A stretch of DNA of 64,000 nucleotides from Cupriavidus necator N-1 (GTDB taxonomy: Bacteria > Pseudomonadota > Gammaproteobacteria > Burkholderiales > Burkholderiaceae). The notes below the pieces were generated by a model that saw nothing but the letters and a program-made list of their open reading frames with translations, had not been told where the DNA came from and ran no database searches. Location of the stretch: assembly GCF_000219215.1 (NCBI RefSeq), contig NC_015727.1, positions 248,001-312,000 of the forward strand, given 5' to 3'. Shown one piece after another: positions 1-12,878 of the stretch (the first letter of the stretch is position 1; each line of letters begins with the position of its first letter). Made by a program: the position numbers and the translations under genes.

Positions 1-655
1 CGAAAAGGTCGGGATGGCGTTGCGCTTGAATTAGGGCTTGTCGACCACCACCGGAGCATCCCTCATAAACGAATTTGGAGTTGCTGATGGAATCACCATA
101 GCGCTTGCGTAGAATTGCCTTGGCGGATGCGAGCACCTTCGGTACAGCGCCATCCGCATAGTCTTGCAACAGTTGAGGGTCAAGCGCGAATGAACCCTGC
201 GGATGTTTCTCCCCATCGTGCCCATGATTTGTTGCGATGGTGGCGTAGCCGCTTTCCGCAACGCCCGGGCTATACGCGCTCTGATATATGGCACCGTCGA
301 AACCGCCTCCGCCCATGAAGAGAACACGATGGTTCCAGGTCGTTGGCATTCTCACTTCGAATGCGAGTTCCTTAGGCATCTCACCGCGAATTACGCAGGA
401 CTCTGGCACATTACCCCTGGCGGGCGCGAGCGTTGCCCGTGTAATCCTGGCCCCTTCAAACTCCTGATTCAATAGCTCGTTGCAAGCTGCCTCAGCCGTC
501 TTCGGCGGTGAGTCACCACCACCACAGGAAGCGAGCAACACAGCAGTTGCAGTCAGGATCAGGGTTGAACGAGTGAGCGTCCTTGGGTTTATGGCCTGCC
601 GGCTCTTTTGTGATCGATCTAGAAGGCCAGCGAACGTGTTACGAGCGAAGGTCAT
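1..655 (-). CDS. tannase/feruloyl esterase family lipoprotein, N-terminal part (cut by window edge)
   Basis: The reading frame is open from an ATG at 655 to the left edge, so at least 218 residues are present and the C-terminus is outside. Residues 1-45 look like a lipoprotein signal with the lipobox LLASCGG. The sequence then has features of the tannase/feruloyl esterase family: a VLFMGGGGFDG segment, an ATNHGHDG segment, and the nucleophile motif GCSGGGRQ with C200-S201. That family hydrolyses esters of gallic or hydroxycinnamic acids and uses a CS-D-HC arrangement, in which the Cys beside the Ser pairs with a Cys near the catalytic His. Export to the periplasm or outer membrane is inferred from the lipobox. 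A TGTC-N8-GACA palindrome lies about 155 bp upstream. The exact substrate is unknown. Confidence 0.85.
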   Translation of the reverse strand, partial: MTFARNTFAGLLDRSQKSRQAINPRTLTRSTLILTATAVLLASCGGGDSPPKTAEAACNELLNQEFEGARITRATLAPARGNVPESCVIRGEMPKELAFEVRMPTTWNHRVLFMGGGGFDGAIYQSAYSPGVAESGYATIATNHGHDGEKHPQGSFALDPQLLQDYADGAVPKVLASAKAILRKRYGDSISNSKFVYEGCSGGGRQALIQAQRHPDLF

Positions 656-1047
656 GATGTCTCCTTGAACATGGTTTTTTTGGTGCAGCCGGGCTGATCA
701 GAACCGGAACGGCCCTTTGTGGACATCGTCGCTCCTCCTGCATACCAGCCTTGGTCCGGCTGACTGTCGCCATAGACTGCCGAATCTAGCGGCTCACTAC
801 ACCCCAGAATGTCTCGCACGTGACATTGCCGAACGCTAACGTCCCGGCTCGCGCCCCTGGAATGTCAGCTACTGCTAACACCTGTTCGGCCCACGGGTTC
901 TGACCGCGGTCGCGATGGTGCAAACCGGCGAAAGCGGCTTGCCCTGATCCGGTGGCATAATTGGCTCACCGTTATCGATGTGTTCGCACTTTCCTGGCGC
1001 GAGCAGAGCGACGAGTAGCCAATCCTCGGGTTTTCGCTTGTGGGGGC
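656..1047. other. intergenic region with regulatory palindrome and dispersed repeat
   Basis: No convincing gene. It contains the first TGTC-N8-GACA palindrome (810-825), which faces the tannase gene, and most of repeat copy 1 (1021-1089), which runs into the 3' end of the acyl-CoA ligase gene. Confidence 0.6.
810..825. promoter_or_regulatory. TGTC-N8-GACA palindrome, site 1 (tannase)
   Basis: TGTCTCGCACGTGACA, extended to AATGTC...GACATT. One of four near-identical sites in the first 11 kb. It lies about 155 bp upstream of the tannase start. Which protein binds it is unknown. Confidence 0.55.
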
Positions 1048-1089
1048 TTACCCGAGTCTGTGCAATGAACCCCGAGTCCGCCGCTGTCC
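1021..1089. repeat. dispersed repeat, copy 1 (69 bp)
   Basis: Shares about 88% of bases with 12810-12878 in the same orientation; the core is GTGGGGGCTTACCCGA followed by TCTGTGCAATGAAC. It overlaps the last codons and the stop of the acyl-CoA ligase gene. Its nature is unresolved; an IS end or an IS-flanking relic is possible. Confidence 0.6.
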
Positions 1090-2736
1090 ATCAATTTCGG
1101 TAATGGCCTCGCGGCTCTTCGCGAGTTCTCGCAGGCGATACTTCTGGATCTTGCCAGTGCCCGTCTTTGGCAGCGGGCCATATACGACCCTGACCGGGCA
1201 TTTGTAATGGGCCAACCGATCACGACAGAAGTCAATGATTTCCTTTTCTGTGGGTGCGTCGACTCCGGGCTTCAGTTCGATGAAGGCACAGGGCGACTCC
1301 CCCCACTTCGGATGAGGCTGGGCGACAACGGCGGCAATCAATACCGCGGGGTGTCGATGCAAGACATCTTCAACCTCCACCGATGAGATGTTTTCCCCTC
1401 CCGATATGATCACGTCCTTGGATCGGTCCGTGATCTGTATATATCCATCGGGATGCATGACCGCGACGTCACCAGTGTGAAACCAGCCGCCACTAAATGC
1501 GGCTACGGTCGCCTGGGGGTTCTTCAGGTAACCCTTCATCACGATATTGCCGCGTAGCAGCAGCTCGCCTTGCGTCTTGCCATCGCAAGGTACCGGTTCC
1601 ATGGTGTCGGGATCGGCAACGCGCAGCCCTTCCAGGGCGGCGGCCCGATTGCCCTGGCGCGACATCAGTCGGGCTTTTTCTTCGATAGGCTTGTCATCCC
1701 AGGCCGGATCGCGATACGAGCTGACCGGCGTTCCAGAGGCCTCCGTGATGCCGTAGACATGCTCCACATCGAAGCCCATTTCCATCACGGCCTTCAAGAC
1801 ACTTGCGGGCGGCGGCGATCCGGCCGTGCGTACCCTGACCGCATGTGAAAACAGGCGACGCTCGGATTCCGATGCCGTCGCAAGAGATGCCAGGACAATG
1901 GGCGCGGCACAGAAGTGGTTCACTTTATGCGCGTCGATGGCGTGGAAGATGTTTTCCGCAGTGACCTTGCGTAAGCAGACGTGCGTGCCCGCCGCAGCAG
2001 TAATGGCCCACGCGAAGCACCAGCCATTTGCGTGGAACATGGGAAGCGTCCAGAGATACCGCGGCGCACGCGGCATGCCCCAGTCGGTCAGCTGAAGCAT
2101 GCTCATCAGGTATGCGCCTCGATGACTCGGCACCACACCCTTGGGATCCGAAGTCGTGCCGGATGTGTAGTTGAGTGCGATCGCATCCCACTCGTCATCG
2201 GGCCAGATGCCGCCGAAGTCGACATCGCCTTCGCTGAGAAGCTGCTCATAGTCGAGCGCTCCCAGTCGGGTCCCTGTCGGGCCTTCAGTGTCGAGAATGT
2301 CGACCACCAAGGGTGGATTGTCCAAGCCCTGCAGAGCGGTTGCAGCGAGCGCGGCAAATTCGCTATCTACCAACAGGATTCTGGCTTCGCCATGGGCCAG
2401 GATGAATCTCACGCCCTCCGCGTCCAGCCGGCAGTTGATGGCGTTGAGCACCGCACCGCTCAGCGGGACACCATGATGGGCCTCGACCATGGCGGGAGTG
2501 TTTGGCGCCAGAATGGAAACCGTATCGCCACCCCGGACGCCGCGCTTCACGAGCGCGCTGGCAAGGCGGCGGCAACGGTCTCGAGTCGTCCGCCAGGATT
2601 GACGAAGGCCTCCATGGACGATCGCCGTGCGTTCAGGATACTGCTCGGCGCACCGATCAAGAAACTGCAAAGGCGTCAACGGCACATGGTTGGCCGCGTT
2701 GCGCTCAAGTCGTGTCTGGTAAATGTTGGCGTTCAT
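1048..2736 (-). CDS. AMP-forming acyl-CoA synthetase/ligase
   Basis: 562 residues, the usual length for fatty-acyl/aryl-CoA ligases of the ANL superfamily (carboxylate + ATP + CoA to acyl-CoA + AMP + PPi). The P-loop-like motif [12 protein letters not shown] starts at Y190. The C-terminal half carries [19 protein letters not shown], the hinge and adenylate-binding region, and [14 protein letters not shown] with the catalytic Lys near residue 530. The ATG at 2736 follows GGAGA. The last ~12 codons ([12 protein letters not shown]) and the stop lie inside a dispersed repeat, so the native C-terminus was probably replaced; the catalytic Lys is upstream and retained. The gene is divergent from the nitroreductase, and two TGTC-N8-GACA sites sit between them. 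Substrate unknown; an aromatic or medium-chain acid fits the context. Confidence 0.9.
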
Positions 2737-2826
2737 CTTTTGTCTCCTGCCTGACGTGCCGCAGCTGGTTCATCAGCTATCGCTAGTTGTGGAAATAAAA
2801 ATGTAGCGACTGGCCACGGTCGAGAA

Positions 2827-2842
2827 TGTCTCGCACGAGACA
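2827..2842. promoter_or_regulatory. TGTC-N8-GACA palindrome, site 2
   Basis: TGTCTCGCACGAGACA in the divergent intergenic region, 91 bp upstream of the acyl-CoA ligase start and 58 bp (about 5.5 helical turns) from site 3. Confidence 0.55.
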
Positions 2843-2884
2843 ATGCCCCGATTTCCCAATTGCGTATCGCTTCCCAGGGGTGAA

Positions 2885-2900
2885 TGTCTCGCACATGACA
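2885..2900. promoter_or_regulatory. TGTC-N8-GACA palindrome, site 3
   Basis: TGTCTCGCACATGACA, 74 bp upstream of the nitroreductase ATG. With site 2 it could control both divergent genes. Confidence 0.55.
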
Positions 2901-2973
2901 GTGCGCCTCCTGTCTTGCTCCTACTCTCTTCCCTGAGTCCGTCAGATGTCTACGACATGTCGAGAGAGCAAGC

Positions 2974-3693
2974 ATGAACAGAGTTGCACCCCCACCCGCA
3001 GAACTCCAGTCTGTCCGCGAGGCTGTTGAATGGGCGATCGTCACCCGCCGCAGCGTCAGAGCCTTTCGTCCGCAGCCCGTCGACGTGGAAACCGTCCACA
3101 AGATCCTCGATGTCGCCCGGTTTGCCGCCACGGGCGTGAATATCCAGCCGTGGCAAGTGCATGTCGTGACCGGGCAGGCACGAGACCGCATTTGCGCGGC
3201 AATCAAGCAGGTCGACGATGACCCCGCACAGTCCGGCGCCCATTCTGACGAGTGGGCGTACTACCCGGACAAGTGGGTGGCACCGTATCTGGATCGGCGC
3301 CGTGAAGTTGGGTGGAGGCTTTATGGCCTGCTCGGCATCGAGAAGGGAAATAAGGCGCGCATGCATGCCCAGCATGGTCGGAACTATCAGTTCTTCGACG
3401 CACCCGTTGGCCTGTTCTTCACCGTCGACCGGCTCATGAATGAAGGCAGCCTGATCGACTACGGGATGTTCCTTCAGAACCTCATGGTCGTGGCACGCAC
3501 ATATGGTCTCAGTACCTGCCCGCAGGCTGCCTTCATGAAGTACCACGCCATTATTCGCCGGGAGCTTTCATTGGGGGCAGAGGAGAAGTTCCTGGTCGGT
3601 ATGAGCCTGGGGTACGCCGACGACGAGCGTGTGGAAAACCAACTGGTGTCGGACCGTGCGCCCGCATCCAGCTTCACCGTCGTCCACACATAA
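2974..3693 (+). CDS. nitroreductase family FMN-dependent oxidoreductase
   Basis: 239 residues. The N-terminal RRSVRAFRPQPV motif is the FMN-phosphate-binding signature of nitroreductase-fold proteins; VNIQPWQVHVV and a C-terminal LVGMSLGYADDE segment also fit. These enzymes carry out NAD(P)H-dependent two-electron reductions of nitro groups, quinones or enones, and some act on CoA esters or ring substrates. It is first in a plus-strand series with the MFS carrier (57 bp gap), the SDR and the thiolase, so a role in the same catabolic route is likely. True substrate not deducible. Confidence 0.85.
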   Translation: MNRVAPPPAELQSVREAVEWAIVTRRSVRAFRPQPVDVETVHKILDVARFAATGVNIQPWQVHVVTGQARDRICAAIKQVDDDPAQSGAHSDEWAYYPDKWVAPYLDRRREVGWRLYGLLGIEKGNKARMHAQHGRNYQFFDAPVGLFFTVDRLMNEGSLIDYGMFLQNLMVVARTYGLSTCPQAAFMKYHAIIRRELSLGAEEKFLVGMSLGYADDERVENQLVSDRAPASSFTVVHT

Positions 3694-3750
3694 ACAGGCA
3701 TGAAGCCTTACTGACAAAGCAACCCATCCATCACCGCATGGAGGAGACAG

Positions 3751-5136
3751 ATGAAAACCGAAATTAATGTACACAAGTTGGCGGAAGACGCGCGATTCTC
3801 TCGATTCCACGCCGGGATCCTGTTCTGGTGTGTCGCCATACTGATTCTCGACGGCTATGACCTTGCAGTGGTCGGGGCGGCCTTGCCCTCGATCATGAAA
3901 GAAATGCGCGTGGACGCCACCAAGGCCGGCTTCATGGCCAGTTCCGCGCTGTTCGGCATGATGGTCGGTGCGATCTACCTCGGCACAATGGCCGAGAGGA
4001 TCGGGCGCAAGCTGTCCATCTGCATCTGTGTCGCGCTGTTCAGCCTGTTTACGGCCGCGGCCGGGCTCACCACGGATCCCGTCACATTCAGCGCGACACG
4101 CTTCCTCGCAGGGCTGGGCATCGGCGGCGTGCTGCCCGTTGTCACGGCCCAGATGGGCGAATTCGCACCAAGCAGGATGCGTGCCCGGTTGGTCACCCTC
4201 GTTTTTGCCGGATATTCGATCGGCGGCATCCTCGTGGCGCTGACCGGCAAGCAACTGATCGGGACGTACGGATGGCAAGCGGTGTTCTTCGTCGCGGGCC
4301 TTCCGATTTTCTTCATCCCGTTCATTCTGTGGACCATGCCGGAGTCCCTCGCCTTCCTCGCAAAAAAGGGACGCCATGCCGAACTGGAGCGTGTAGCGCG
4401 TCGCCTGGCACCGGCGTTGAAGCAGGGTGAGCGCTATCAGTTCTTTGTTCCGTCCGAGGCACTCGCCTCCAATGCCCCGGTGGCTGCGCTCTTCTCGCAG
4501 GGGAGAGCGCTTAGCACGCTGATGATCTGGGTGGCGTTCTTCACTGGCCTCTTCATGGTGTACGCGCTTAGTTCGTGGCTGACTAAACTGATGGCGTTGT
4601 CCGGCTACAGCCTGGGCTCGGCGCTGAACTTCGTGCTCGTCTTCAACATCGGTGCGGTCTGCGGTGCCATTGGCGGCGGATGGCTGGGGGACCGATTCAA
4701 TATCAAGCACGTGCTGGTGGCGTTCTATGCCACCGGAGCCGTCTCCCTCGCCCTGATGGGCCACACCAAGTCGACCGAACTGCTCTTTGTCCTCGTATTT
4801 GTCGTGGGCGCCTCTACCCTCGGTACGCAGTTGCTGGCCTACGCGTACGCGGGTGAGTTCTACCCCGGTCCCATTCGCTCGACAGGCGTGGGATTTGCCT
4901 CCGGGATCGGACGACTGGGTGCCATCATCGCCCCGGTCCTCATCGGTACGCTGGTGGGAATGAAGCTGCCGTTGGAACAGAACTTCCTGGCCATCGGCGT
5001 TGCCGGCCTCGTCGGTACGCTCGCCGTCATCCTGGTCGACCATCGCAAGAGCGCCGCCGCGCGACAAAGCCCAGGTCAGGTGGTCTCGCAAGAGCCGCTG
5101 GCGCCGGTAGCCGCTCATCAGCCGACAAACCACTGA
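3751..5136 (+). CDS. MFS transporter, aromatic acid:H+ symporter (AAHS) type
   Basis: 461 residues with about 12 hydrophobic spans. The first span contains LDGYDLAVVGAALP; the DGYD motif is typical of AAHS carriers such as PcaK, BenK and MhpT. The loop 2-3 signature is present as ERIGRK. The start is preceded by GGAGGAGA. It presumably imports an aromatic or related carboxylate for the neighbouring acyl-CoA ligases, SDR and thiolase. The next gene begins 20 bp downstream, so co-transcription is likely. Confidence 0.9.
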   Translation: MKTEINVHKLAEDARFSRFHAGILFWCVAILILDGYDLAVVGAALPSIMKEMRVDATKAGFMASSALFGMMVGAIYLGTMAERIGRKLSICICVALFSLFTAAAGLTTDPVTFSATRFLAGLGIGGVLPVVTAQMGEFAPSRMRARLVTLVFAGYSIGGILVALTGKQLIGTYGWQAVFFVAGLPIFFIPFILWTMPESLAFLAKKGRHAELERVARRLAPALKQGERYQFFVPSEALASNAPVAALFSQGRALSTLMIWVAFFTGLFMVYALSSWLTKLMALSGYSLGSALNFVLVFNIGAVCGAIGGGWLGDRFNIKHVLVAFYATGAVSLALMGHTKSTELLFVLVFVVGASTLGTQLLAYAYAGEFYPGPIRSTGVGFASGIGRLGAIIAPVLIGTLVGMKLPLEQNFLAIGVAGLVGTLAVILVDHRKSAAARQSPGQVVSQEPLAPVAAHQPTNH

Positions 5137-5156
5137 AAAACTGAAGCTCGACCATC

Positions 5157-5915
5157 ATGAATATCTCCGGCAATGTATTTATCGTAACCGGCGGCGGATC
5201 CGGACTCGGCGCCGCCACAGTGAAGGTACTCGCACAGCAAGGTGCAATAGTCGTCATCGTCGATCTCGACGCCACGAAGGGCCAAGCCATCGCCAAGGAC
5301 ACGGGTGGCGTCTTCTGGAGGACCGACGTTTCCGACGAGGCGAGCGTCAAAGAGATGTATGCCTTTGCCTGCGGACTCGGAAAATTGCGGGGGTTGGTAA
5401 ATTGCGCCGGCATTGCCCCCGCGGAAAAGATCATCGGAAAGAGCGGCATCCACGCCATGTCTTCGTTCATGCGAACGATGCAAATCAATGTCGGGGGCAC
5501 CTTCAATCTTCTGCGCCTTGCGGCCGACATCATGGCAAGCCAGGATCCGGTGGAAACCGGCGAGCGCGGCGTCATTATCAATACGGCGTCAATCGCAGCC
5601 TTCGATGGCCAGATCGGACAAACCGCCTACGCGGCATCGAAAGGTGCGATCGTGTCGATGACGCTTCCGTTAGCCCGTGAACTGGCCCGCTTCGGCATCC
5701 GCGTGATGACCATCGCGCCGGGCATCATGGAGACGCCGATGCTGCTGGCCATGCCGCCAGAAGTGCAGAAGGCGCTCGGCGATGCGGTGCCATTTCCGCC
5801 CCGCATGGGCAAGCCCGACGAGTTTGCCGGACTTGTTGAATACATCCTTGGCAATGCCTACCTCAATGGCGACGTGATCCGTCTCGATGGCGCGATCCGG
5901 ATGCCGCCGAAATGA
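5157..5915 (+). CDS. SDR-family 3-hydroxyacyl-CoA dehydrogenase (HSD10-like)
   Basis: 252 residues, classical SDR. The cofactor motif TGGGSGLG is at about residue 11 with an acidic residue (IVDLD) after beta-2, pointing to NAD(H). The catalytic triad is S145 (NTASIAAF), Y158 and K162 (YAASK). A PGIMETPML segment and an extended 'PVETGERGVIINTAS' region resemble the type II 3-hydroxyacyl-CoA dehydrogenase/HSD17B10 group. With the thiolase 13 bp downstream it gives the last two steps of a beta-oxidation turn (3-hydroxyacyl-CoA to 3-oxoacyl-CoA to acetyl-CoA). Confidence 0.88.
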   Translation: MNISGNVFIVTGGGSGLGAATVKVLAQQGAIVVIVDLDATKGQAIAKDTGGVFWRTDVSDEASVKEMYAFACGLGKLRGLVNCAGIAPAEKIIGKSGIHAMSSFMRTMQINVGGTFNLLRLAADIMASQDPVETGERGVIINTASIAAFDGQIGQTAYAASKGAIVSMTLPLARELARFGIRVMTIAPGIMETPMLLAMPPEVQKALGDAVPFPPRMGKPDEFAGLVEYILGNAYLNGDVIRLDGAIRMPPK

Positions 5916-5928
5916 TTCAGGAGCAACC

Positions 5929-7128
5929 ATGACCACGAAAGACCCGATCGTCATTGCCTCGGCTGCCCGGACTCCCATTGGTGGATTCCAGGGCGCGCTG
6001 TCCAGCCTGGGCGCCCCGGATTTGGGCGGCGCTGCCATCCGGGCGGCAGTCGAACGTTCAGGCATTGCGAACGATGCAGTGCAGGAAGTGTTGATGGGAT
6101 GCGTACTGCCTGCAGGCGTTGGCCAGGCGCCCGCTCGCCAGGCAAGCATTAATGGTGGGCTGCCGCTCTCGGCGGCCTGCACCACCGTCAGCAAAGTGTG
6201 CGGCTCCGGCATGAAGGCAGTGATGCTGGCGCACGACCTGCTCGCTGCTGGCACCAACGACATGATGGTGGCGGGCGGTATGGAATCGATGTCCAACGCC
6301 CCCTATCTCCTACCCAAGGCGCGCAGCGGTTACCGGCTGGGACACGGCACCATGCTCGACCACATGTTCTTTGACGGCCTCGAAGACCGTTACAGTCCCG
6401 AGACAAGGGGCCGGCTCATGGGGACCTTCGCCGAGGACTGTGCAGGGGCGTACCAATTTTCTCGTGAAGCGCAAGACGAATGGGCGGTTCTTTCCACGCA
6501 GCGTGCCCAGGCGGCAATCCGGGATGGGAGCTTCGCGTGGGAGACCGCTTCGATACCGATCGTGGACCGGAAGGGCGCGACGTCCGTCGTTGCCGATGAT
6601 GAGCAACCTCTCAAGGCAAATGTCGATAAAATTGCGTCGCTGAAGCCCGCCTTCAGAAAGGATGGCACTGTCACCGCGGCCAACTCCAGTTCGATTTCGG
6701 ACGGTGCCGCAGCGTTGGTGCTGACGAAGGCCTCCATCGCTGAGAGCCTTGGCTTGAGCCCGATCGCCCGCGTGGTTGGCCATGCCACTCATGCACAGGC
6801 TCCGGCGAAGTTTGCCACCGCTCCCGTCGGTGCCATAGGGAAGCTGCTGAATTGCATTGGCTGGGACACGGATTCTGTCGATCTCTGGGAAATCAACGAG
6901 GCCTTTGCCGTGGTCACGATGGCTGCCATCCGGGACCTGTCCCTCGACCTCGCTCGCGTCAACTTTCACGGCGGCGCCTGTGCGCTCGGGCATCCGATTG
7001 GCGCTTCGGGTGCTCGGATTCTGGTGACGCTCCTTGGTGCGCTGCGCAAGACCAGGGGCCGCCGCGGCGTCGCAAGCCTGTGTATCGGGGGTGGTGAAGC
7101 AACCGCGATGGCGGTGGAGATGCTGTAG
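5929..7128 (+). CDS. thiolase (acetyl-CoA C-acyltransferase)
   Basis: 399 residues from the ATG at 5929, behind AGGAGCAACC; an upstream in-frame start would overlap the SDR gene and lacks family support. Catalytic residues are visible: C91 in KVCGSGMKA (acyl acceptor), H355 in GHPIGASG and C385 in [15 protein letters not shown] lies near residue 322. It cleaves 3-oxoacyl-CoA with CoA, or condenses acetyl-CoA in reverse. It ends the plus-strand series of nitroreductase, carrier, SDR and thiolase. It converges on the Crp/Fnr gene; the 58-bp gap shows no clear terminator. Confidence 0.92.
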
Positions 7129-7186
7129 CAGGTGGGCGCCATGGCGATTGCCACCTTGCCATGGCCGCAAGGGATCCTGGGGTGGG

Positions 7187-7945
7187 CTAGTCACCAATAT
7201 GCGCGTACCGGCGCAGTCCATCCAGGTCAATCACCACAATGGCACCATATTCCATCTCGATCATGCCCGCTTTAGCCAACTCACGGAGTGCGCGATTGGT
7301 GTTCTGGCGGGAAAGACCGGATAGCCTGCCTAGCTCTTCCTGCGACAGCGCGAGGGTGCGCTCCGTGGCAGGATAGAGCTGCCGATGGAACAACTCGGCC
7401 ACACAGAAAGCGACGCGGGCGGCGGCCTCGTGGAGCCGGAAGTTATGCACCAGCCCGACGTAGTAACCGCAGCGTGCATTGAGCTGGTCAATGACATAGC
7501 GGCTGAAGCCATGATTGCGCCCAAGCAGCCATAGGAAAGTCTCGCGCGGCACATAGGCAATGCGACTGTCCTTGATTGCCACCACCGAATACGGCCGCAT
7601 CTCCGACTTCAGCACTGCCCCTTCGCCAAACCAGGAACCAGCCGGCACACCGGCAAAGGTCACGGCGCGGCCGCAAGCCGAGGCCGTGTCTACCTTGATG
7701 ATGCCTTCGATCACGCCCAGCCAGTGATCGGCCGGATCGCCTCGATGACATGCCATGCCACCCGCGGCGCAGTAACGCTCGAACGTCTCGATTTTGACGC
7801 GCGCCTTCTCTTCGTCGGTCAATATGGCGAACCAGCTTGACGCCTGCAGGAAGTCCTCAAGCGTGCGATGGCGTGACCGCGTCGAGCCGTAGAGCGTGTG
7901 GACATGGACCGCGCTGCTTGCTTCAGCGTAGGAAATCGTCCGCAT
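7187..7945 (-). CDS. Crp/Fnr family transcriptional regulator
   Basis: 252 residues from the ATG at 7945, chosen because CCAAGGAGTTGCC precedes it. An N-terminal cyclic-nucleotide-binding-like beta-barrel (about residues 30-145, with WFGEGAVL) is followed by a winged helix (about 175-245); the recognition region reads [19 protein letters not shown]. No N-terminal Cys cluster for an Fe-S centre is seen, so it is not a canonical FNR. It lies 31 bp downstream of the acyl-CoA synthetase on the same strand, so they may be co-transcribed. It is one candidate for recognising the four TGTC-N8-GACA sites; that is inference only. Confidence 0.88.
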
Positions 7946-7976
7946 GGCAACTCCTTGGCTTTGCATAGTGTCTGGG

Positions 7977-9659
7977 CTAGTGCTTTTCATCGCCCTTGCC
8001 GTCCAAGTCCGCGTTTTTTCGCGCCTCGCGCAACACAAACCGTTGAACCTTGCCGCTCGGTGTTTTCGGTAGCTCCGAGATGAACGTGACGCGCCTCGGG
8101 TAGGCGTGTGCGGCGTATCGGGTCTTCACCCATTGCTGGAGTTCCACAGCCGCTTCGTCAGTCGCCTCAAAGCCAGGACGTAGCACGACATACGCTTCGA
8201 TCACCTCTCCCCTCACCTTGTCCGGAACTGCGATGACCGCACATTCTGCGACTGCAGGGTGGGCCGTGAGCACGGATTCCACTTCGAACGGACCTATCCG
8301 ATAGCCAGCCATGATGATCACGTCATCTTCGCGCGATGAGAAGAAGAAGGCCCCGGTCTCATCGGCCCGCGCTAGATCCCCGGAAAGATAGTACTGGCCG
8401 TCTCTGGAAAACTTCTCGGCACTCTTTTCCGGCAAGCCGTCGTACCCCGCGAACCAGGCAAGCGGGCTGTCTGCTAACTTGAAAGCGATGCGCCCGACCG
8501 TACCAGGGGGCACCTCGACGTCTTCGGTCCGATCCAGCACCACAGCCTTCCAGCCAGGCATCGAAATTCCCATGCAGCCAGATTGTATGGGGCGCACGAG
8601 GCGGGGGTCATGATGGTTATTGATCAACATCCCCGCTTCGGTCTGACCATAGTGATCGTAGACACTGACGCCGAGCGCCTGCGCGGCCCACTCGTTGACA
8701 TCGGGGGTCAACGGCTCGCCTGCGCTCGATGCCGAGCGTAGGTGCAGGCCAGCAGGCGCCGTCACGTCAGCGCACATCAGCGATCGAAAGACGGTAGGGG
8801 CCGCCGCGAAATTTGTGACGCCACACTGACGCAGGACGTCGTAGGTAAGGGCAGGATCGAAGCCCCCCTTCTGAAAGACGCTCTGGACCCCGGTGCACAG
8901 AGACCCCACCACGCCGAAGTACAGACCGTAAGCCCAGCCAGGATCGGCGGCACACCAGTAGACATCATCAGCGCGCAGGCCGATGCCGAATTCGACATAG
9001 GCGTGAAAGGCTGCAATCGCCCGCGACGGCACAACCACGCCCTTCGGCTTGCCTGTGGTTCCGGAGGTATAAATGTGAATGAAGGGGGCATCGCCGCCGA
9101 GCGCAGCGGGACTTACGCGATGACCGGCCTTCAGAACGTCTTGATATCGATGCAGCGCGGGCTCTTCGAGGCTAAGCTCATCATCGCTTATCACCACAAT
9201 GTCGTACCTCGGCGCCGGCTCCCCGTCCTCGGAAGAAGAAAGCTTGCTGCGTTGTGAGGCATCGCAGACCACGACCCTCGCCCCACTGCCCTCCAGGCGC
9301 AGCGCGACCGCCGGTGGCGCAAACGCGGTGAACAGCGGCACGTGCACGGCACCGATCCGCCATATGCCAAGCAGCGCGACGAGGTATTCCAAGCTTTTGC
9401 CCGCAAGCGTCGCCACACGATCGCCGGATCTGACACCCAGGTCGAGCAGGCCGGCGGCAAAGGCTTCGGATTGGACTCTCAGCTCACCGTATGTCAGCCG
9501 CTCGACCCTGAGATTCGCATCGACGATATCGTAGGCAACACTGGCCGGATCATGCCGGTCGCACAACATCCACGCCAGGCTCGCCGAAGAATCGGCATAG
9601 TGATCGATGAGCTCGCTGACGCGCTCGCCCAACTCGGCTAAAGGGGAAAGGATTTCCAC
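7977..9659 (-). CDS. AMP-forming acyl-CoA synthetase (acetyl/short-medium chain type)
   Basis: 560 residues from a GTG at 9659 with AGGAGACG upstream. YTSGTTGKPKGVV is the ATP-binding motif at about residue 200. AADPGWAYGLYFG, YGQTEAGM and REDDVIIMAGYRIGPFEVES resemble acetyl-/medium-chain (ACS/ACSM-like) ligases. LPKTPSGKVQRFVLR near the C-terminus contains the catalytic Lys. It has a different subfamily look from the ligase at 1048-2736. A perfect 13-bp-arm palindrome 37 bp upstream and the TetR gene beyond it suggest local repression relieved by an acyl ligand. Confidence 0.9.
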   Translation of the reverse strand: MEILSPLAELGERVSELIDHYADSSASLAWMLCDRHDPASVAYDIVDANLRVERLTYGELRVQSEAFAAGLLDLGVRSGDRVATLAGKSLEYLVALLGIWRIGAVHVPLFTAFAPPAVALRLEGSGARVVVCDASQRSKLSSSEDGEPAPRYDIVVISDDELSLEEPALHRYQDVLKAGHRVSPAALGGDAPFIHIYTSGTTGKPKGVVVPSRAIAAFHAYVEFGIGLRADDVYWCAADPGWAYGLYFGVVGSLCTGVQSVFQKGGFDPALTYDVLRQCGVTNFAAAPTVFRSLMCADVTAPAGLHLRSASSAGEPLTPDVNEWAAQALGVSVYDHYGQTEAGMLINNHHDPRLVRPIQSGCMGISMPGWKAVVLDRTEDVEVPPGTVGRIAFKLADSPLAWFAGYDGLPEKSAEKFSRDGQYYLSGDLARADETGAFFFSSREDDVIIMAGYRIGPFEVESVLTAHPAVAECAVIAVPDKVRGEVIEAYVVLRPGFEATDEAAVELQQWVKTRYAAHAYPRRVTFISELPKTPSGKVQRFVLREARKNADLDGKGDEKH

Positions 9660-9695
9660 GGCGACCGTCTCCTACTACGGTGGCCGGTTGGCTCC

Positions 9696-9728
9696 AGCCT
9701 TAAGTGAAATCATGATTCACTTAAGGCT
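9696..9728. promoter_or_regulatory. perfect palindromic operator (13-bp arms)
   Basis: Arms AGCCTTAAGTGAA and TTCACTTAAGGCT separated by 7 bp. It lies 37 bp upstream of the acyl-CoA synthetase GTG and 146 bp downstream of the TetR stop, a likely TetR operator. No T-tract follows, so it is not an obvious terminator. Confidence 0.7.
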
Positions 9729-9873
9729 AAGATGGCCGCCTCGAGAAGTCAAGGACTGACTCGGCAGGGTAATTACTTACCGACCTGACATAGGAAGTGA
9801 CAACATCTTCCAATGGGCCCGAACATGAATTGCGCTTCTACTTATTTACGCCTTCTTCATCACATTCAGATTT

Positions 9874-10518
9874 TCACGCCGGTGGAACGAACGTGACGGA
9901 GGTTCCTGCGACGCCACGCAGGCAGAAAGTAATAATGGACGTGGCCTGACTCTGCATTGGGACGCCCGCCAACGCTGCTTCGCTGCTCAAGGGAGCGACG
10001 AGGCCCTCGAAAAGGCACCCGACGATACAGTCTGCCGAGGCAGTCGAATCCTGTTCGGGAAACTCGCCTGCAGCAATGCCCTGTTCAATGATGGTGCGAA
10101 ACACCCGCGAGAGCGCACGGTGATAGGTCAGCCTCGCTGCCTCGACCTCCGGTTCAACCGGTTCGGCCACCAACGCGTGCGCCAGCCGCCGGCCACGCAA
10201 GGCCCGGCTCGCGAAAGTCCACGCTGCAATGCCCAGCCGGTCGCAAGCGGTGCCGTCTCGCATGGCGATGCCGGCCACGACATCAACTTCCCGCTGTGCC
10301 GTGAATTTGACGACCTCGACAAGCAGTTCGGTCTTAGACGGGAAATACCGATACAGCGTCCCAATCGCTAGGCCAGCCGCCTCCGCGATCGCCGTCATCT
10401 GGGCCTCCCTGAACCCCGACTGCGCGATGAGGGTGCGTGCGGCCTTCAGGATAAGGGGATGCTTGTCGGCGCCCCGTCGACGAAGGCGTACCCTGGGAGA
10501 AGTCAGTAGATCATGCAT
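9874..10518 (-). CDS. TetR/AcrR family transcriptional regulator
   Basis: 214 residues from the ATG at 10518; a longer form could begin at 10578, but the first 20 residues there are low-complexity basic sequence. The TetR DNA-binding domain begins at KHPLILKAARTLIAQSGF and includes the helix-turn-helix AIAEAAGLAIGTLYRYFPSK; the rest is an unclassified helical ligand domain. It lies upstream of the acyl-CoA synthetase on the same strand, with a perfect palindrome between them. It probably senses an acyl-CoA or a related acid. Confidence 0.87.
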   Translation of the reverse strand: MHDLLTSPRVRLRRRGADKHPLILKAARTLIAQSGFREAQMTAIAEAAGLAIGTLYRYFPSKTELLVEVVKFTAQREVDVVAGIAMRDGTACDRLGIAAWTFASRALRGRRLAHALVAEPVEPEVEAARLTYHRALSRVFRTIIEQGIAAGEFPEQDSTASADCIVGCLFEGLVAPLSSEAALAGVPMQSQATSIITFCLRGVAGTSVTFVPPA

Positions 10519-10645
10519 CTCAGTCCGCTTGCCTAGGGCCCTTCCCCGCCTTGAACGCGTGGGCACCTTTGCGGCCAATTATGCCACGCCCGGCCGGGCC
10601 GACATGCTAGCGCCGCGCAACCACCGGCACACGTCCGCGCACAAA

Positions 10646-10661
10646 TGTCCCGCATATGACA
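10646..10661. promoter_or_regulatory. TGTC-N8-GACA palindrome, site 4
   Basis: TGTCCCGCATATGACA, 94 bp upstream of the start of the broken second tannase gene; same consensus as sites 1-3. Confidence 0.5.
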
Positions 10662-10754
10662 GTTGTCCTGCACTTCAATGTCTAGCCTTTGCCAAAAAGG
10701 GGCTACCGAACCGAGTAGGGTGCATCCCTGCTCACGACATCTGAGGAGACTACT

Positions 10755-11015
10755 GTGCGCCGTACCGAAATATCGCGTTCGTTGTTCCTGTCTGTAGGTT
10801 GTGCCGCCGTCATCGGCAGTCTTGCCGGTTGCGGCGGATCCGACGAAGGCAAGGGCGCGGCAGCGCCACCGCCGTCGGACAGCACCTCCATGGCAACCCC
10901 GCAGGCCCAACGGACTACTACACGAAGGTCGTGGCTCAAGCTGGGGGGCAGGCGGAAGCGGACAAGTTCGTCGAGTACTTCACGGCGCCGGGTGTGAATC
11001 ACTGCGTGGAACAGC
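10755..11015 (+). pseudogene. tannase/feruloyl esterase remnant (signal peptide joined to C-terminal tail)
   Basis: A GTG at 10755 behind GAGGAG starts a lipoprotein signal (SLAGCGGS). After about 45 codons the frame changes and the tail GPTDYYTKVVAQAGG...DKFVEYFTAPGVNHC follows, which resembles the C-terminal catalytic-His region (HC of the CS-D-HC set) of tannases. The whole middle of the enzyme is missing and the end abuts an IS5-type fragment. Site 4 still sits upstream. This is a decayed paralogue of the gene at the left edge. Confidence 0.65.
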
Positions 11016-11340
11016 CAAGCTTCAGGAATGCTTCGTGAATATCAGCCCGACGCTCGAAGCGAATGCGAAGACGACGGAGTTTGTGGAACCACGCATGAGT
11101 GCGTTCGACCACCCAGTTTCGCCCGCCCCGACAGCTCGCACCGACGACGAATCGACGGCCGCTCGTGAGAAATCGAGTTGGCCGGCCTCGCGCAGCTTCG
11201 CGAGCAGCAACTCATGTAGTCGGACCCATACGCCCGCCCTCTGCCAGTCGCGCAAACACTGCCAGAAGGTCGGGCCAGAACCAAATCCCAATGCGTGTCT
11301 GAATGCCGTGGGCGCGCTGGGCACGTACCCACACAGGCTT
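11016..11340 (-). pseudogene. IS5-family transposase remnant
   Basis: On the minus strand, an N-terminal part with GFGSGPTFWQCLRDWQRAG and AAVDSSSVRAVGAG (first Asp of the DDE set) is joined, with loss of the centre and a frame change, to VVERTHAWFHKLRRLRIRFE (the Glu region) and its C-terminal tail. This is a deleted IS5-like element. It abuts the tannase remnant and may have caused or accompanied its loss. Confidence 0.7.
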
Positions 11341-11359
11341 GGCGCCGGCCCCGAGCCGC

Positions 11360-12664
11360 TCAGGGCAGCGTCACATCGAAGCAACCGTGCGCTGCAGCGA
11401 CGCCGGCCAGTCGTTGCGCTATCCAGTCGATCCCGTCCGGCGGTCCTGCAAAGTTGCCGGTTCCGTGCTCAAGCCCGATGAGCCCTTTGAACGTCACGTC
11501 GGCGCCGCGCGAGCACCAGCTGCTAAACAGCAATTGTCCCAGCGCGAACGGAACGACCTGGTCCGCGGTGCCGTGATAGATGAAGGCGGGTGCTCCCGGA
11601 ACCTTGGTGCCGAGCAAAGAGGCCTTGAATCGCTGCTGCCATTGGGAGTCGGAGAGGGCATTTGGTTGCGTCACGTCGGCCGCCGATGTGGTTCCATACG
11701 CTGTGAGGTATTTGTCGAAGCACGACGTGCGGACGTCTTGCATGACTTGGCGACCGAAGTCAGTGAGACGCCCATCGAGGTTCAATTCGGGGAACGCATG
11801 GTCGAGACCGGAGAGGGCGGCAAGGCCGAATCCGGCTCCCGCGGTGGGGTTGCCGTTCAAGTGGTTGACCTCCACCAGCATGTCGGTCGGCACGCCGCCG
11901 ACCAGCGCGCCGCGGAAGTTCAGTTCTGGCGCATAGGTTGGTTGCAGTTCTGCGACCCAGCCGGCCGCCTGCCCGCCTTGAGAGTAGCCGACGACACCGA
12001 CGGGCGCGCCCGCGGGCACGCCCGCGCCGGGCAGTCGTTGCGCAGCCCGCAAGGCGTCGAGGCCGTTGTATCCCTCGGACCGGCCGACCAGGTACGACGT
12101 CAGACCCGGTGTGCCCTGGCCCTCGTAGTCGGTCAGGACGACCGAGATGCCGCGAGCCAGCAATTGCTGGGTTGTTCCGGATTCGTAATCGAGCCCATCG
12201 GGCGAAGCGCTCGTGACGCCGAACTGCCTGGACGGTGCACATTGATCACCAGTCCCGCGTGTCCCGGGCGTCATGACCACGAGGGGCTGACCGGCCGCGC
12301 GGAGTAGCGGCGTGGCGACAACGCCGGTCACGGCAACCGGCTTGCCCGAGGCGGTCGACGAAAGATACATGATCTGCTGTATGAGCGCATTCGGGAAAAG
12401 CGGCGCGGTGATCGTGCGGGTTCGAATCACGTCACCGGGCTTGCCGGGCGGCAGGGGATTCGGCGGCACGTAGAAGTAGTCCTGCGGAATGATCTGGGCC
12501 GATGACGCCGTGACGACGCCAATGGAAAGCGCGACCATCAGAAAGGCAGCCCTGCAACCGCGCCACCCTTTGCGGTGCCCGGAAGACGCCGCCCTTGCTA
12601 GGTCCGCCGTCCCGGATGCCGCTCCGACGTTGACGTCGTCGCACTTCGCTTTGCCTACTTTCAT
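11360..12664 (-). CDS. secreted lipase, LIP family (alpha/beta hydrolase)
   Basis: 434 residues from the ATG at 12664, which has AAGGAGACAGAC upstream. A long basic N-region followed by the hydrophobic stretch AAFLMVALSIGVVTASSAQ (about residues 40-58) indicates a signal peptide with cleavage near Ala-Gln. The body matches secretory lipases: TPGTRGTGDQCAPS, the nucleophile elbow GYSQGG with S228, FIYHGTADQVVPF (Asp region) and a late EHGTGN (His). It should hydrolyse triacylglycerols or other esters outside the cytoplasm. Its neighbours are remnants and a repeat, so no operon is evident. Confidence 0.85.
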   Translation of the reverse strand: MKVGKAKCDDVNVGAASGTADLARAASSGHRKGWRGCRAAFLMVALSIGVVTASSAQIIPQDYFYVPPNPLPPGKPGDVIRTRTITAPLFPNALIQQIMYLSSTASGKPVAVTGVVATPLLRAAGQPLVVMTPGTRGTGDQCAPSRQFGVTSASPDGLDYESGTTQQLLARGISVVLTDYEGQGTPGLTSYLVGRSEGYNGLDALRAAQRLPGAGVPAGAPVGVVGYSQGGQAAGWVAELQPTYAPELNFRGALVGGVPTDMLVEVNHLNGNPTAGAGFGLAALSGLDHAFPELNLDGRLTDFGRQVMQDVRTSCFDKYLTAYGTTSAADVTQPNALSDSQWQQRFKASLLGTKVPGAPAFIYHGTADQVVPFALGQLLFSSWCSRGADVTFKGLIGLEHGTGNFAGPPDGIDWIAQRLAGVAAAHGCFDVTLP

Positions 12665-12809
12665 GTCTGTCTCCTTGCGCCGGCCATGACCGGCAAGACG
12701 CTGTGAATGAAGCGTCAAAAGTTGAAGCCGTTAAGCAAGATGGCGCGCGCCAAACTGTCCGCAGTGCAGTTTGGCAACGAGTTTGACGCCGGATTGTCCT
12801 TGCGACGAC

Positions 12810-12878
12810 AATCCTGGGGTTTTGCCTTGTGGGGGCTTACCCGAATCTGTGCAATGAACGCCGAGTTCGCCACCGTCG
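12810..12878. repeat. dispersed repeat, copy 2 (69 bp)
   Basis: Second copy of the repeat at 1021-1089, same orientation, about 8 mismatches. Here it lies outside any intact gene. Confidence 0.6.

Follow-up and report, generated by a model that had tools for sequence, protein, structure and literature searches.

CooA, CRP and CprK are the closest described counterparts of the system considered here. For CooA, the consensus operator is given as the palindrome TGTC-N8-GACA (PMC7306483), and as TGTCGGCNNGCCGACA in PMC545781. For CRP, the class II position is a site centred at -41.5 (PMC2859248). Four 16-bp palindromes of the TGTC-N8-GACA form lie in a 64,000-nucleotide stretch of Cupriavidus necator N-1 DNA (contig NC_015727.1, positions 248,001 to 312,000; hereafter the window, to which coordinates refer). 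Very probably, to judge by their form, spacing and company, they are class II operators of the neighbouring Crp/Fnr protein (7187-7945, minus strand) and switch on genes for ester and acid catabolism.

Four sites confined to one cluster

An earlier note on this DNA had drawn attention to palindromes at 810-825, 2827-2842, 2885-2900 and 10646-10661, and all four indeed match its consensus, TGTC-YCGCAYRW-GACA, without a mismatch. Distances to the gene starts, which the note put at 74-155 bp, are 74 bp for the nitroreductase gene (start 2974), 91 bp for acyl-CoA ligase 1 (2736), 94 bp for the broken second tannase (GTG start at 10755), and 155 bp for the intact tannase-family gene (655). When up to two mismatches are allowed, the window yields five matches, where 0.52 are expected (the fifth is 2827-2842 read on the opposite strand); none of 100 shuffles reaches five. 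The absence of further full-motif copies extends well beyond the window: TGTCNCGCANNNGACA occurs four times in the whole 8.48-Mb genome, always in this cluster, and the reversed-pattern control gives zero. The common, randomly placed motif that the note had named as its own refutation did not appear, and the proposal of one dedicated gene set for ester and acid catabolism is supported.

One element of the note needs qualification. It had stressed a conserved central CGCA; in relatives the half-site does extend inward from TGTC, the commonest form being TGTC-T-Y-G. As a gene-oriented element, CGCA was rejected, because both orientations relative to the gene occur among the four sites.

A fixed class II spacing

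Toward its gene, each of the four palindromes is followed by a -10-like hexamer, TANNNT, whose first base lies 22 bp past the palindrome (offset 21, or N21). If the hexamer occupies -12 to -7, the centre of the palindrome falls at -41.5. TANNNT has a frequency of 0.0029 in the window, and its presence in four of four cases at one offset corresponds to a P value near 2e-9 once 31 possible offsets are taken into account, a figure that is only rough because the window as a whole is less A+T-rich than promoters are.

The same layout recurs in relatives. Among 50 site/gene pairs counted in 21 loci (a pair having no other site in between), the hexamer stands at N21 in 41 of the 41 that face ligase, nitroreductase, or tannase genes, and in 37 of 37 when identical sequences are counted once. 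It is found in none of eight pairs facing TetR genes and not in the single pair facing an esterase gene. (One pair labelled ligase 2, in L063, is a ligase 1 ortholog by gene neighbourhood.) Judged by the -10 position, all 41 pairs therefore have the arrangement of a class II Crp/Fnr-activated promoter.

This one fixed spacing to a -10-like hexamer argues for an activator and against sigma54. The earlier note had considered upstream activating sites for a sigma54 activator, with which palindromes 70-160 bp upstream of genes would be compatible. Such a role is highly improbable, given the sigma70-type hexamer at one distance in all four promoters as well as the 41 pairs, and given that loose -24/-12 matches (up to two mismatches) number 20 in the window against 25.8 expected, none of the 20 being in the four promoters.

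Two further palindromic candidates were noted. A bare TGTC-N8-GACA at 12795-12810, 77 bp upstream of an esterase gene, was rejected as a fifth operator of the window; it is probably there by chance, since it lacks the -10 spacing of the other sites. At 10679-10694, 33 bp downstream of the 10646 site, a one-mismatch site (TGTCTAGCCTTTGCCA) has TAGGGT at N21; this may be an additional, weaker start for the broken tannase or a chance match.

The sites accompany the Crp/Fnr gene

The protein encoded at 7187-7945 matches PF00027 (E 4.6e-16) and PF13545 (E 1.5e-13), both above cut-off, and so belongs to the Crp/Fnr superfamily. Its recognition helix reads SRQNTN, compared with SRQTTST in Rhodospirillum rubrum CooA (PDB 1ft9) and SRETVG in Escherichia coli CRP; in alignment, SRQNTNR stands opposite SRETVGR of CRP. 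The earlier note had offered this protein as one possible binder. That it is the binder now appears likely, from the fixed -41.5 geometry and from co-occurrence of the sites with its ortholog.

Exact copies of TGTCYCGCAYRWGACA were found in 7 of 299 family genomes: 6 of the 18 with a Crp/Fnr ortholog of at least 64% identity, and 1 of the 281 others. In five of the seven (the genome of the window itself, G045, G231, G237, and G296), the motif lies inside the same gene cluster. All 20 stretches around orthologs of 64-94% identity (12-19 kb long; L050-L053 are near-copies) contain one to four TGTC-N8-GACA palindromes, where 0.15-0.35 are expected in each. These sites lie mostly in the gap between the ligase and nitroreductase genes, upstream of tannase, or in both places.

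The reciprocal test used the best 30 of many nitroreductase matches. All 16 loci from genomes that have the Crp/Fnr ortholog showed the composite of palindrome and spaced hexamer; neither it nor the palindrome alone was seen at any of the 14 from genomes lacking one. As a control, the top-ranked Crp/Fnr genes of the genus, taken from a longer list, were inspected in 3.2-kb loci (against 12-19 kb above), and 1 of 30 (L186) had the palindrome. Nineteen of the 30 helices are readable as the FNR-type LETVSR or LETASR, none of them with a palindrome; the other 11, including that of L186, fall in another reading frame or are cut.

A further set came from named genomes: of 326 relatives there, the 80 best were kept, and 12 of these, on contigs already in the first set, were left out. 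Sixteen are ortholog loci (53-81% identity), with the palindrome in 13 and the N21 hexamer in 12. Hexamer matches there number 20 at N21 and 6 at N22, and every other spacing between 10 and 40 gives four or fewer. Of all 256 possible half-sites TGTC scores highest, with 20 against 2 for the runner-up.

A wider SRQ family and a helix/half-site pairing

The remaining 52 loci are more distant (40-52% identity) and include 15 from Pandoraea with near-identical sites. The palindrome occurs somewhere in 50 and near the Crp/Fnr gene in 46; the N21 hexamer accompanies TGTC in 34, against 4 for the next best half-site. With one palindrome mismatch allowed, there are 87 composites in the 80 loci, versus 1 for each of two rotated half-sites. 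Read at spacing 20-22, 40 frames lie behind the distant-locus sites: 29 match acyl-CoA ligases (15 of them from Pandoraea), 3 nitroreductase, 1 Crp/Fnr, and 7 no window protein, LivG and 2-methylcitrate synthase being among these seven. Across 21 genomes, including that of the window, the composite pattern matches 45 times and the reversed control 3 times.

The C. necator genome itself contains the composite at eight places: the four sites, three beside other SRQ-type Crp/Fnr genes, and one other. The three face a FadD11-like ligase, a PRK08162-type ligase, and an Mpo1-like gene. In the last case (L070), the SRQ-type Crp/Fnr gene occupies 675-1427, and the class II-spaced TGTC-N8-GACA at 1501-1516 points at the Mpo1-like gene. 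The eighth composite (L072, G000:C3:3600880-3600922) lies upstream of a PRK12583-type fatty-acid CoA ligase gene.

Because several SRQ-type genes of this genome adjoin TGTC-N8-GACA, cross-talk is conceivable, and the four sites could belong to another Crp/Fnr protein, such as one of those three, instead of or alongside the local one. We consider this very unlikely: the inner bases differ at the sites of those genes, broadly tracking the residue after SRQ; occurrence of the present sites tracks the local ortholog; and a relative of 47-49% identity is listed for many genomes of the genus that lack the exact motif. The local protein is thus preferred.

The residue following SRQ and base 7 of the half-site vary together. 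In a set of 109 distinct composites at N21 or N22, asparagine goes with G in 115 of 146 half-sites, arginine with C in 50 of 64, and valine with T in 8 of 8. On a helix-masked tree of 75 rows, from which 13 near-copies or stop-containing rows were left out, SRQN needs two origins, forced by the starred branches. In the clade of the second origin, which is alphaproteobacterial, 11 of 14 rows have the inner triplet TTG, as do many rows of the first SRQN clade. Two origins support covariation of helix and half-site without deciding it, because this is a quick tree in which long branches meet.

On balance, we lean slightly toward a broader view, in which the window protein would be one of a beta- and alphaproteobacterial subfamily of Crp/Fnr class II activators, distinct from CooA, whose SRQ reads TGTC and whose next residue (N, R, or V) sets the inner bases. 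Its members would sense acids or acyl-CoAs, as suggested by the many that adjoin acyl-CoA ligase genes, and at this locus TetR would control the Crp/Fnr gene.

Observations on the other side

Several observations weigh against the assignment of the sites to this regulator. In G087 the exact motif lies on a different contig from the ortholog, and G229 has the motif without a close ortholog. (The two divergent genes flanking the G087 motif we take to be polyphosphate kinase and exopolyphosphatase.) The 14 negative nitroreductases of the reciprocal test are more distant (53-63% identity) than the 16 positives (64-100%), and because of this lower identity their orthology is uncertain. Of the 48 palindromes in the 21 loci, five had no counted gene within 330 bp and do not enter the pairs. 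No ortholog locus has a site directly upstream of the Crp/Fnr gene, so the usual autoregulation is not seen. L067, around an SRQ-helix paralog of the same genome, has no palindrome in 19 kb and no one-mismatch composite. The N21 hexamer is missing from 18 of the 52 distant loci; the alphaproteobacterial SRQNA clade accounts for 12 of the 18 (8 Bradyrhizobium). Finally, the loci are related by descent, and their counts are not independent.

To these may be added Ramlibacter, in which the three loci with an ARQ helix (L100, L102, and L103), members of the further set of 16 ortholog loci, all lack an exact palindrome. L102 has a one-mismatch composite upstream of nitroreductase; L100 and L103 have none within one mismatch, L100 retaining, by eye, the left half TGTC with two differences in the right. 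The three were considered as clean cases of site loss and dropped in view of the L102 composite, and no claim is drawn from them.

Separately, in L064, two TGTC-N8-GACA palindromes 25 bp apart (8983-9023) lie between divergent genes, a pair that presumably resembles polyphosphate kinase and exopolyphosphatase.

The gene cluster and its TetR regulator

Features of the cluster are collected in Table 1. Acyl-CoA ligase 1 is divergent from the nitroreductase, transporter, dehydrogenase and thiolase genes, and these four, by their spacing, probably form one transcript. The second tannase (remnant at 10755-11005) is broken through a large internal loss. Around its promoter, 341 bp are 85% identical to the counterpart in the relative L045. 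A minus-strand frame beside it (11022-11384) has no Pfam match.

Table 1. Genes, putative operators and promoter elements of the cluster (window coordinates)
Feature	Position	Strand	Basis or remark
Tannase-family esterase (531 aa), 5' part	1..655	-	Runs past left edge of window; open reading frame read across adjoining contig stretches; family name from earlier note
-10-like hexamer TAGATT (tannase)	783..788	-	First base 22 bp past palindrome
Putative Crp/Fnr-type operator, intact tannase-family gene	810..825	-	TGTCACGTGCGAGACA in gene-ward reading
Acyl-CoA ligase 1 (NF006020, PRK08162 family)	1048..2736	-	Family profiles
-10-like hexamer TACATT (ligase 1)	2800..2805	-	Fixed spacing
Putative operator, acyl-CoA ligase 1	2827..2842	-	Motif scan, promoter spacing
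Putative operator, nitroreductase and downstream MFS-SDR-thiolase genes	2885..2900	+	Motif scan, promoter spacing
-10-like hexamer TACTCT (nitroreductase)	2922..2927	+	Fixed spacing
Nitroreductase-family protein (PF00881)	2974..3693	+	Pfam profile
MFS transporter	3751..5136	+	Top NCBIfam match aromatic acid/H+ symport family, 346 bits, under model cut-off of 419
SDR-family dehydrogenase	5157..5915	+	Family profiles
Thiolase (acetyl-CoA C-acyltransferase family)	5929..7128	+	Family profiles
Crp/Fnr-family regulator, proposed binder	7187..7945	-	Profiles, alignment; recognition helix residues 210-220
Acyl-CoA ligase 2	7977..9659	-	Family profiles; upstream of and same direction as Crp/Fnr gene
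Palindrome CTTAAGTGAAATCATGATTCACTTAAG, candidate TetR operator before ligase 2-Crp/Fnr unit	9699..9725	.	Repeat search in loci
TetR-family regulator (PF00440)	9874..10578	-	Pfam profile
Putative operator, broken second tannase	10646..10661	+	Motif scan
-10-like hexamer TAGCCT (broken tannase)	10683..10688	+	Fixed spacing; outside the 41 counted pairs
Second-tannase remnant	10755..11005	+	Pieces match residues 1-69 and 438-469 of a 543-codon open frame in L045

The cluster contains a second palindrome of a different kind. Positions 9699-9725 form a perfect CTTAAGTGAA-N7-TTCACTTAAG, whose core is the sole copy in the genome. The same repeat, defined by at least 9 of 10 arm pairs, lies within 500 bp upstream of the Crp/Fnr or ligase 2 gene in nine of the 17 TetR-containing loci and in none of the four that lack TetR; in the remaining eight with TetR no such repeat was found. 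We infer that 9699-9725 is probably a TetR operator, and a two-step circuit would therefore result.

Could TetR instead bind the 16-bp palindromes? TetR proteins bind palindromes, the TetR gene (9874-10578) adjoins the 10646 site, and sites lie beside TetR genes in several relatives. However, the 16-bp sites are not kept only with the TetR gene: four of the 20 stretches (L059, L061, L062, and L063) keep their site pairs yet yielded no TetR ortholog, although the gene could sit elsewhere in those genomes. Moreover, the fixed -41.5 position fits an activator, the hexamer is missing from all eight TetR-facing pairs, and the 9699-9725 type of palindrome, through its association with TetR, is the better candidate. 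A TetR role at the four sites is accordingly very improbable, and the Crp/Fnr protein remains the favoured binder.

A working model

In the proposed mechanism, a dimer of the local Crp/Fnr protein would bind the four palindromes, its CooA-like SRQ helix reading TGTC-N8-GACA, with TGTC-T-Y-G as the commonest half-site. From its place at -41.5, upstream of the TANNNT -10 element of a sigma70-type promoter, the bound protein would aid RNA polymerase as a class II activator. Predicted targets are the tannase-family esterase, acyl-CoA ligase 1, and the nitroreductase gene together with those for the transporter, dehydrogenase, and thiolase; the second tannase, now broken, would formerly have been activated too. 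TetR, at 9699-9725, probably holds down transcription of the ligase 2-regulator unit. The presumed effector is one of the pathway's acids or acyl-CoAs.

The computed support for this model is site uniqueness, fixed geometry, Crp/Fnr co-occurrence, and helix/half-site covariation; from such sequence patterns we infer binding, activation, the TetR step, and the effector. As a mechanism it is ordinary: a class II operator set, a local Crp/Fnr activator, and CooA-type half-sites, a switch of well-known type. Searches of open-access literature found nothing published on this regulator, its gene set or its relatives; within that literature, both the regulon and the broad-subfamily view are new.

What the analysis offers is a precise, sequence-derived assignment of regulator, operators, and promoters for an ester and acid catabolism cluster. 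It also suggests that TGTC-N8-GACA by itself is no mark of carbon monoxide (CO) sensing. Such sites often precede acyl-CoA ligase genes here, and matches should therefore be judged together with the neighbouring regulator. Covariation of a single helix residue with the inner bases provides a handle for predicting Crp/Fnr specificity; the pairing, if true, amounts to a readable recognition code.

Comparison with known Crp/Fnr systems

A structure model of the window protein has a moderate mean predicted local distance difference test score (pLDDT) of 65.3, and was used for fold comparison alone. In CRP, the serine of the ERSA stretch has a role in binding cyclic AMP (cAMP); by alignment, this serine is not conserved in the window protein. 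E. coli CRP at class II promoters likewise combines Crp/Fnr domains with a 16-bp two-fold site centred at -41.5. However, the two proteins share 21% identity, and cAMP-CRP pairs an SRE helix with the half-site TGTGA (PMC5449483), whereas SRQ and TGTC are found here.

CprK, whose ligand is an aryl acid, likewise activates a dedicated gene set as a member of the Crp/Fnr family (PMC2610375). It differs, according to the same paper, in its FNR-like box with a 4-nt spacer and in the valine at its specificity position.

CooA, a heme protein that senses CO, has both the SRQ recognition helix and the TGTC-N8-GACA palindrome in common with the window regulator. Identity between the two is nonetheless 20-30% across the aligned parts, and the inner bases of the CooA site are GGC, where those here are mostly TYG. 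The targets also differ: CooA controls CO dehydrogenase and hydrogenase genes (PMC545781), whereas the genes here are those of ester and acid catabolism, the four sites preceding not CO oxidation genes but esterase, ligase, and nitroreductase genes.

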